Source: Deltaproteobacteria bacterium
GTDB taxonomy: Bacteria; Desulfobacterota; RBG-13-43-22
Reading direction: 5' to 3'
Assembly (NCBI GenBank): GCA_016219065.1
Contig: JACRCK010000367.1
Location: 1 to 37,840, forward strand
Length of the DNA stretch: 37,840 nt
The notes under the pieces were generated by a model. It had not been told where the DNA came from. It saw only the letters and a list, made by a program, of their open reading frames with translations, and made no database searches. This document shows, in pieces, positions 1,915 to 5,001 of this stretch; position 1 is the first letter of the stretch; each line of letters begins with the position of its first letter. Both the position numbers and the translations under genes were made by a program.

Positions 1915-3513
1915 CTATTCAGGCGAATAGGACAAAAGATGGGACCTTAAATTGATTTTTTTATGCTTCAATTTAAGTTTACTCCGAATGTTATGCCGGT
2001 GAAATAAAACCGTATTTTTGGATAGAAAGAGCAACTCGGCAATCTCCTTGTTGGTTTTGCCTTCCTTGACCAGGTTGGCCACCTTGATTTCCATGGAGGT
2101 CAAATTGAAATACTTGGAAGACATACGGCCGATAAAGGGCGAGATGATGTTATTGAGATTGGACTCCATGATGTCGATCAGGGTCTGTTGCGTGGTGTTC
2201 AGCCGCCCTTTTTTAAGCCGTTCCACGTAAGGGGAAATCAATTCCTTGACATTGGACAATACGTCTTCCCCCAATTCCTTCTTGTCCTCTTCCCGCTGTT
2301 TCAAAAGGACCTTCAGGGCCGTATTGACTTCTTCCAGATGGTGGGACTGGGCCTTGAGCTCCACTTCCCTCTTCCGCAGGGCCTTTTCCACCCGTTTGCG
2401 CTCTTCCACTTCCTGCTTGAGCTGGGTATTGATCTTGGCCAGTTCGGCCGTCCGCTCCTTGACCCGGTCTTCCAGGTGGTCGTGGTATTTTTTCAATTCC
2501 TGTTCGGCCTGCTTCTGGGCGCTGATATCCCTCAGGATGACGATATTCCCGGCCTGCCGGCCGTCACGATTTTTATAAATCGTCGAGCTGATCTGCACGT
2601 CCAGTACCCGGCCGTCCTTGGTCAGTCGTTTGGTTTCAAAAAGCCTGATCTTTTTCCCCTGCAGCATCAGTTTGATGGCTTTTTGGGTTTCCGGCCAATT
2701 TTCCTCGGGCACAAATTGGATCTGTGTGCCCGTGACCTCTTCGCTGGAAAAGCCGAAGGTCTGCTCAAAGGCGGGGTTGACATACGTGGCCGTGCCGTTC
2801 ATGGTATAGACCACGATGGGATCCGGAGAAGAGGTCAGCAACGAACGATATCTTTCTTCGCTTTCGCGCAGCGTTTCTTCGGTCTGTTTTCGTTCGGCCA
2901 ATTCCCGGCGGACCTCAGTGTACAGTTTGGCTTTATCAATGGCCACCAGCGCCAGTTCAGCAAAACGTCCCAGGAAGGCCAGATCTTCATCCTGGAACCT
3001 TTTATCGGGATCGACACTGGCCAGACCGATGACCCCGTGAAACCGGTTTCTGTCCTTGAGGGGGATGCCGACCACAGAACAGAGGGCGTCCAGAGACCGG
3101 TCGCTGATGCGATCCTTCCAGTCACGGTAATCGTCCACCAGAATGGGCTGTTTGGTCTCCCAGACCTTACCGCCCACCCCTTCCCCCATCTTCACGCGCC
3201 GGCCCAGTTGTTTTTCAAAAAAACCCATGCCGACCCGCATTTGCATTTTCGTATCCCCGGGCTCCAGGAGATAGATAAACCCGCTTTCGGTCTGGCTCAG
3301 CCGGGCGGCCCGATGCAGTATGACCTCCAATAATTCTTCCTTGTCCAGGCGGTCAATCAGCCCCAGGGACGTCTCGTGCAAGGCGGTCAAGTGTTCATTT
3401 TTTCGCCGCAGTAAGCGCTCCGCTTCCCCGAGCCGGAAGATTTCCTCTTGCAGGTCTTCCAGCCCGGCAGGCCGTTCAGCCGGTTGGCTTTGGCCGGTCG
3501 CTTGTCCCGACAT
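1915..3513 (-). CDS. GAF-PAS sensor protein with C-terminal LuxR-type helix-turn-helix
   Basis: 532 aa: GAF-like N-terminal half, PAS (EERYRSLLTSSPDPIVVYTMNGTATYVNPAFEQTFGFSSEEVTG), coiled coil, C-terminal LTSMEIKVANLVKEGKTNKEIAELLFLSKNTVLFHRHNIRSKL (LuxR HTH). No histidine kinase core seen. Confidence 0.85.
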   Translation of the reverse strand: MSGQATGQSQPAERPAGLEDLQEEIFRLGEAERLLRRKNEHLTALHETSLGLIDRLDKEELLEVILHRAARLSQTESGFIYLLEPGDTKMQMRVGMGFFEKQLGRRVKMGEGVGGKVWETKQPILVDDYRDWKDRISDRSLDALCSVVGIPLKDRNRFHGVIGLASVDPDKRFQDEDLAFLGRFAELALVAIDKAKLYTEVRRELAERKQTEETLRESEERYRSLLTSSPDPIVVYTMNGTATYVNPAFEQTFGFSSEEVTGTQIQFVPEENWPETQKAIKLMLQGKKIRLFETKRLTKDGRVLDVQISSTIYKNRDGRQAGNIVILRDISAQKQAEQELKKYHDHLEDRVKERTAELAKINTQLKQEVEERKRVEKALRKREVELKAQSHHLEEVNTALKVLLKQREEDKKELGEDVLSNVKELISPYVERLKKGRLNTTQQTLIDIMESNLNNIISPFIGRMSSKYFNLTSMEIKVANLVKEGKTNKEIAELLFLSKNTVLFHRHNIRSKLKLKHKKINLRSHLLSYSPE

Positions 3514-3662: not shown

Positions 3663-3691
3663 TTGACAGGTCGGAAGAAAAAACGCATAAT
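3663..3691 (+). promoter_or_regulatory. Predicted sigma70-type promoter
   Basis: TTGACA (3663-3668), 17-nt spacer, CATAAT (3686-3691). Confidence 0.65.
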
Positions 3692-3732
3692 AACGGCGGC
3701 TGATTGAACGATCTGGGAAAGGAGGTGACCCC

Positions 3733-3849
3733 TTGGGACGACATAAAAAAATTGAACGGACCCGGGAAATCGAACGCCGGCGCCATCGGAAGCTGAAACG
3801 GAAGAAACTGGCCGCCAAAGCCGGCGGCCAGGTTCCCCCAACCGCCTAA
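3733..3849 (+). CDS. 38-aa highly basic small protein (not in supplied ORF track)
   Basis: TTG start preceded by AAAGGAGGTGACC; translation MGRHKKIERTREIERRRHRKLKRKKLAAKAGGQVPPTA*; consensus-like promoter about 40 bp upstream of the SD. Confidence 0.65.
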   Translation: MGRHKKIERTREIERRRHRKLKRKKLAAKAGGQVPPTA

Positions 3850-3854
3850 ATAAA

Positions 3855-4003
3855 ATCAAATTCGAAACTCGAAATTCGAAATTCGAAACAAATTCGAATG
3901 ATCAAAGCCCAAATGACCGAAACATAAGGTTCCACTGTTTCGAATTTCGAATTTGGGTCATTTGATTTTGTTTCGGATTTCGTGCTTCGGATTTCGAATT
4001 TAA
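3855..4003. repeat. Short-period intergenic inverted repeat (CGAAATT heptamer type)
   Basis: AAATTCGAAACTCGAAATTCGAAATTCGAAACAAATTCGAA ... TTTCGAATTTCGAATTTGGG ... TTTCGGATTTCGTGCTTCGGATTTCGAATTT. Confidence 0.8.
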
Positions 4004-4056: not shown

Positions 4057-5001
4057 CTAAAAAGTTCTGACCCGCTGCTCGTAGCTGTTTTCAATGGTCT
4101 GCACCAATCCGGTCAGCAGGCTGTTCACGGGGACCAGCCGGCCTAGTTTTTCTCCTTCCCGCACAATGGCACCGTTGATGTAATCGATCTCCGTCTTCTT
4201 TTGCCGCAGCACATCCTGGAGCATGGAGGAAATATTCGGACCGGTCTGGCGGCACACTTTGCGGACCTCCTCCAGCGGGTTGTCGAAAAGCAAGGGGATC
4301 CCCCGGGCTTCGGCCACCTGAACCGCCTCCCGCACCGCTGCGGCCATGATCCGTTCCGTAGCCGGAAAATCCAACAAGCCGCCGTTGCGCAAACCGGTCA
4401 AAGCCGTCAGGGCGTTGATCCCCACGTTGACCATCAGCTTGCTCCAGATCAGGCTACAGATCCGGGGTACGATCCGGGTCGCGAAACCGGCCGCGGCCAG
4501 ACAGGTCCGGGCCAACCGCAGACCGGGATGGGCCTCCTCCGAGGATTCCCCGAACCCCAGGCCGATATAGGTATCCCCCACCCCGGCGTGCCGGATCCGA
4601 CCGGGCCCCAGGGAGGTGGCCCCGTGGGAAGTGATGCCGGCCAGGATCTTTTCCGGCGGCAGGTATTTTCCCAGGAGTTCCACGTTGCCCACGCCGTTTT
4701 GAAGCGTTAAAAAATAAGGGCCGGAGGGCAGGGCCTGGAGCTGCCGGGCCACGCCCTCGGTGTCGTAGGCCTTCACGCAGATCAGAATCAACTCAACATC
4801 CCCCAGGGCGGCCGGATCCAGGGTGACCGGCACCATTTCCCGCACTTCCTCTTCCCCGGTCAGCAGCTCGATGCCCTGACGGCCGATCAGGGCCGCCCGC
4901 TCCGGGCGATGATCGAGCACCCGGACTTCCAGCCCCGCCCGAGCCAGCTTCACTGCCAGCAGGCCGCCCATGGCCCCCGGCCCCACGACCCCGATTTTCA
5001 T
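4057..5001 (-). CDS. panE: 2-dehydropantoate 2-reductase (ketopantoate reductase)
   Basis: MKIGVVGPGAMGGLLAVKLARAGLEVRVLDH Rossmann start; LTLQNGVGNVELL; ATGA overlap with upstream panB. Confidence 0.88.
   Translation of the reverse strand: MKIGVVGPGAMGGLLAVKLARAGLEVRVLDHRPERAALIGRQGIELLTGEEEVREMVPVTLDPAALGDVELILICVKAYDTEGVARQLQALPSGPYFLTLQNGVGNVELLGKYLPPEKILAGITSHGATSLGPGRIRHAGVGDTYIGLGFGESSEEAHPGLRLARTCLAAAGFATRIVPRICSLIWSKLMVNVGINALTALTGLRNGGLLDFPATERIMAAAVREAVQVAEARGIPLLFDNPLEEVRKVCRQTGPNISSMLQDVLRQKKTEIDYINGAIVREGEKLGRLVPVNSLLTGLVQTIENSYEQRVRTF

Follow-up and report, generated by a model that had tools for sequence, protein, structure and literature searches.

The 38-codon reading frame at positions 3733-3849 of the window (the whole stretch of DNA analysed, 37,840 nucleotides in length) is, with near certainty on comparison with related genomes, a genuine and evolutionarily conserved protein gene. 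What had been an overlooked ORF of fewer than 40 codons thus emerges as a protein family of phylum-wide distribution and defined signature, whose candidate role as a lineage-specific ribosomal protein can be tested. The features of the locus, in window coordinates, are:

3663..3691, plus strand: sigma-70 type promoter TTGACA-N17-CATAAT, 11/12 consensus matches (-35 box TTGACA 3663-3668, 17-nt spacer, -10 box CATAAT 3686-3691)
3718-3728, plus strand: Shine-Dalgarno (SD) sequence AAAGGAGGTGA, the AGGAGG of which ends 7 nt ahead of the TTG start (3733)
3733..3849, plus strand: gene for the basic 38-aa protein (the small gene), TTG start, stop TAA, predicted helix at residues 3-29, pI about 12
1915-3513, minus strand: GAF-PAS-LuxR ORF, divergent from the small gene
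4057-5001, minus strand: panE-like ORF, convergent with the small gene

From promoter to stop codon, the small gene occupies 3663-3849 of the plus strand. Both the letters and the ORF match the original prediction, which had claimed the TTGACA-N17-CATAAT promoter, the strong SD and the TTG-started ORF of 38 codons exactly as they are found in the sequence, and its description of the small gene as divergent from the GAF-PAS-LuxR gene was also borne out. The frame is 51 codons long from stop to stop, and the start is unambiguous because the TTG at 3733 is the sole ATG, GTG or TTG within it. Given the divergent GAF-PAS-LuxR ORF on one side and the convergent panE-like ORF on the other, the small gene is most likely monocistronic. 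There are three promoter-like sites in the surrounding 1 kb, versus 0.6 expected in shuffles. A promoter-like TTGACA-N17-CAAAAT (3623-3595, minus strand, 10/12) lies back to back with the promoter of the small gene and is directed toward the GAF-PAS-LuxR gene.

Conservation of the frame in relatives had been set as a test beforehand, and it was found across the phylum. In a search of 59 related genomes, the same frame was recovered at 88% identity within the genus, at 70-74% within the family and at 58-77% in members of other families. In a sample of 394 genomes from the phylum (completeness at least 90%), one homolog per genome was present in 103 genomes when a profile of 10 homologs was used and in 123 when a profile of 66 homologs was used; about two thirds of the sampled genomes are without a homolog. 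The alignment of the 66 homologs (A2) has the signature M-[AGS]-x-H-K-K-x-E-R-x-[RK]-E-[IL]-x-R-[RK]-R-x-R-[RK], in which M1, H4, R9, E12, R15 and R19 are invariant, and K5, K6, E8, R17 and R20 (together with K25 further on) are nearly so. A more distant tier within the phylum (e.g. MPRRERDRELARRRKRREKRKKLRAKGLLPP..., MTTERKREIRRRRHRKEKSKKRR...) keeps the core and is without the HKK cap. The homologs are mostly 32-50 aa long, with a net charge of +9 to +23 and a median pI of 11.8, and nine have a C-terminal extension that brings them to 70-75 aa. This extension is itself conserved (GLFPRPEGYDPRVYSYVAYAVAKGIMSLEEALxRLEKAK, at L061, L062, L064, L072, L074, L076, L078, L082 and L117, which form one group) and is predicted to be a helical hairpin. 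A scan of contigs with profile A1 confirmed three loci from 201 pattern hits, a count that is no measure of breadth, as short low-complexity queries confirm poorly; all three lie in Desulfovibrionales, in keeping with the Desulfobacterota named in the original prediction.

The pooled pN/pS in the predicted frame is 0.104 over 17 pairs (pN 0.072, pS 0.693); synonymous sites are saturated in several of these pairs, which makes the value approximate. For the two remaining sense frames of this DNA the ratio is 1.7 and 2.5. One antisense frame gives 0.23, and this is interpreted as a frame that shares its degenerate positions with the true one. Thus, the comparison of synonymous with nonsynonymous changes came out in favour of the predicted frame, and the pattern of substitutions establishes phylum-wide conservation of this frame under strong purifying selection.

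The start codon, ribosome-binding site and promoter of the gene are likewise backed by conservation. Within the class to which the window belongs, all four carriers keep the TTG start and the panE neighbour, three of the four keep the promoter, and the SD is conserved. The -35/-10 pair has equal spacing and lies at nearly equal distance in G001 and G004 (11/12 in each); no comparable pair was found at the small gene of G002. Across the family, a GGAGG-like SD is present upstream of nearly all 66 homologs, and a promoter of at least 10/12 upstream of only eight (1.3 expected), several homologs sitting in operon-like positions instead. The strong SD and the promoter in the window are no more than compatible with the high constitutive expression that the original prediction drew from them.

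The neighbouring genes in G001, G002 and G004 were named by eye from their sequences. The order in G001 is LuxR - small gene - panE, as in the window, and G002 and G004 have the panE-panB-folD side in common. In four genomes of one family, the homolog lies directly upstream of rpmH-rnpA-yidD-yidC, 3-32 nt before rpmH, which is the gene for ribosomal protein bL34. The homolog is found beside CBS/HcyBio/LarB-like genes in about ten genomes, near a SpoU rRNA methylase in eight and near YbeY-PdxJ in four. The majority of neighbourhoods are non-translational (RdgC, HcyBio, LarB-like, panE), and the contexts are stable within families and change between families, so that no function follows from the neighbours. 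In G003, which belongs to the genus of G002 and G004 and is 98% complete, the two flanks are in place and the small gene is missing; this clean loss from an intact locus means that the gene is dispensable there. At three loci (L091, L093 and L100, in three genomes), a charged protein of 46 aa, MSSNSKQTKIVRKNKVKANKPNLKADRKRDQLNREVLKELAEKDKK, without a Pfam match, is encoded about 0.2-1.3 kb downstream of the homolog.

The sole Pfam relative of the window protein is DUF6800 (PF20607), at a borderline 24.9 bits against a gathering cut-off of 25.0. In the six-frame search, G001, G002 and G004 score above the 25-bit cut-off (26.5, 25.3 and 26.6, respectively), and 36 of the 66 homologs give a match with an E-value of 0.01 or lower. 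The core ER-x-[RK]-E-[IL]-x-RRR-x-RR is common to both families. However, the window protein matches only positions 1-23 of the 43 in the profile, whose C-terminal half is unmatched, and the N-terminal M-[AGS]-x-HKK cap falls outside the profile. The small-gene family is an uncharacterised one that overlaps the N-terminal half of DUF6800, a family of unknown function; a literature search returned no paper naming DUF6800. NCBIfam gave no match for the window protein. A match of one of the 66 members to an NCBIfam type III effector model (E 0.031) was taken as a composition artefact. Searches of the PDB (phmmer and two profile searches, E up to 10) found no match to any chain, ribosomal chains included.

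AlphaFold2 models the window protein as a single helix at residues 3-29 (mean pLDDT 85). This predicted long helix would carry H4, K5, K6, E8, R9, E12, R15, R17, R19 and K25, and would be followed by a variable C-terminal tail. In the 70-aa long form an extra helical hairpin is predicted (pLDDT 89); a Foldseek search of this form against the PDB gave nothing below E 1.5 and no convincing fold match. Along the helix, the variability of the alignment columns recurs with a period near 100-105 degrees (permutation p about 0.02 for 100 degrees and 0.06 for the best angle within 90-110), a marginal hint that the helix has one conserved and one exposed face.

The best reading, to which about an even chance is given, is that the product is an accessory, rRNA-binding small protein associated with the ribosome, the step to the ribosome being one that we infer. 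The helix would lie on structured RNA, most likely rRNA of the ribosome or of an assembly intermediate. The protein would be an accessory, lineage-specific ribosome-associated factor, in the manner of other very small basic ribosomal proteins of bacteria (bS22, bTHX and bL38), and would stabilise local rRNA structure without catalysis. A role with RNA or the ribosome is supported by the basic composition, the predicted basic helix and the rpmH-operon position in one lineage. The ribosome in particular is supported by the single copy per genome in 123 of 394 genomes, the pooled pN/pS of 0.10, the SpoU rRNA methylase or YbeY-PdxJ nearby in some genomes, the marginally conserved helix face, and the precedent of Borrelia. 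There, bS22 (61% Lys+Arg) and bL38 had escaped genome annotation and came to light through imaging of the ribosome (PMC10618245). The RNA or ribosome role is weakened by the patchy distribution, the loss in the close relative G003, the mixed and mostly non-translational neighbourhoods and the lack of a sequence match to solved ribosomal proteins; a role at the ribosome is weakened further because DNA, mRNA and other polyanions are also targets of highly basic helices.

The product of the small gene resembles bL38, a lineage-specific small ribosomal protein of Flavobacterium and Borrelia, in having been missed by annotation, but bL38 contains beta strands (PMC10618245), whereas a single helix is predicted here and the PDB holds no sequence match. 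Tentatively, and with the balance of probability against it, the family as a whole may be an undescribed accessory ribosomal protein of the phylum, with DUF6800 as its wider kin and an rRNA site apart from that of bS22, gained or lost without killing the cell. If the family is ribosomal, this would be the first functional hypothesis for DUF6800. A limited literature search found no ribosome-structure paper from this phylum, so such components would so far have been invisible, and the literature on Desulfovibrio ribosome structure and small proteins yielded nothing useful.

Alternatively, the peptide could be an arginine-rich RNA-binding regulator (similar to an antiterminator or RNA chaperone) whose targets are particular transcripts and not the ribosome. 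This is unlikely, if still a serious contender: arginine-rich-motif peptides share the chemistry of an Arg-rich helix with Glu in between, and in the window and in G001 the gene stands alone behind a promoter of its own, but it is conserved phylum-wide in single copy with no constant target gene nearby. Neither did phage and viral collections yield a match; tblastn against plasmids and phages gave none (a weak result, in which low-complexity filtering may mask the query), and a scan of viral contigs gave 61 pattern hits, of which none was confirmed. Rather doubtful is the role of a small protein that binds DNA or compacts the nucleoid. The 15 Lys+Arg versus 3 Glu among 38 residues would suit it, as would the RdgC homolog (RdgC is a DNA-binding recombination protein) directly downstream of the small gene in ten genomes. 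However, the RdgC linkage is confined to some families, Pfam and NCBIfam gave no match to a known nucleoid-protein family, and a simple charge neutraliser would not usually have conserved glutamates such as E8 and E12.

It is very improbable that the small protein is the bS22 of this genome (COX24_C/AURKAIP1-type) or occupies the bS22 pocket. Like bS22/COX24_C (PF08213), mS38 and eL41, which are tiny, very basic, helical and often unannotated (PMC10618245), the window protein is tiny, very basic, predicted to be helical, and unannotated. Its sequence is different, however, and the window's genome (G000) has a bS22 of its own elsewhere:

Contig C59:13729-13827 (locus L151), minus strand: canonical bS22 gene, 33 aa, MGSVVKKRRKKMRKHKHKKLMKKTRHQRKKRGK, 35.8 bits to PF08213

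Membership of bS22, or replacement of it, was rejected on this account, since the bS22 pocket is already accounted for. COX24_C matches over the cut-off occur in 18 of the 59 relatives, so bS22 is common in the phylum; none of the A1 and A2 members matches PF08213 in Pfam scans, and G003 retains bS22 while lacking the small gene. Finally, that the ORF is a chance frame and the conserved element only the promoter or an RNA, as its shortness and TTG start might suggest, is refuted by the confinement of the pN/pS of 0.10 to this sense frame, the invariant residues in 66 proteins, the conserved SD and the absence of any Rfam match at gathering scores.

Two further elements were observed at the locus. 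Within the ORF, a GC-rich hairpin (3808-3831, codons 26-33) is terminator-like on the minus strand and possibly ends antisense readthrough from panE. Directly after the small gene, a long imperfect palindrome of TTCGAA-type repeats (3858-4001, 49-nt arms, 80% complementary) folds as RNA at -56 kcal/mol (z -6.1), and its low-threshold Rfam microRNA matches are due to the inverted repeat. A related string, TTCGAAATTCGAAATTCGAA, is present at five other sites in the genome, and the palindrome looks like a dispersed palindromic repeat element.
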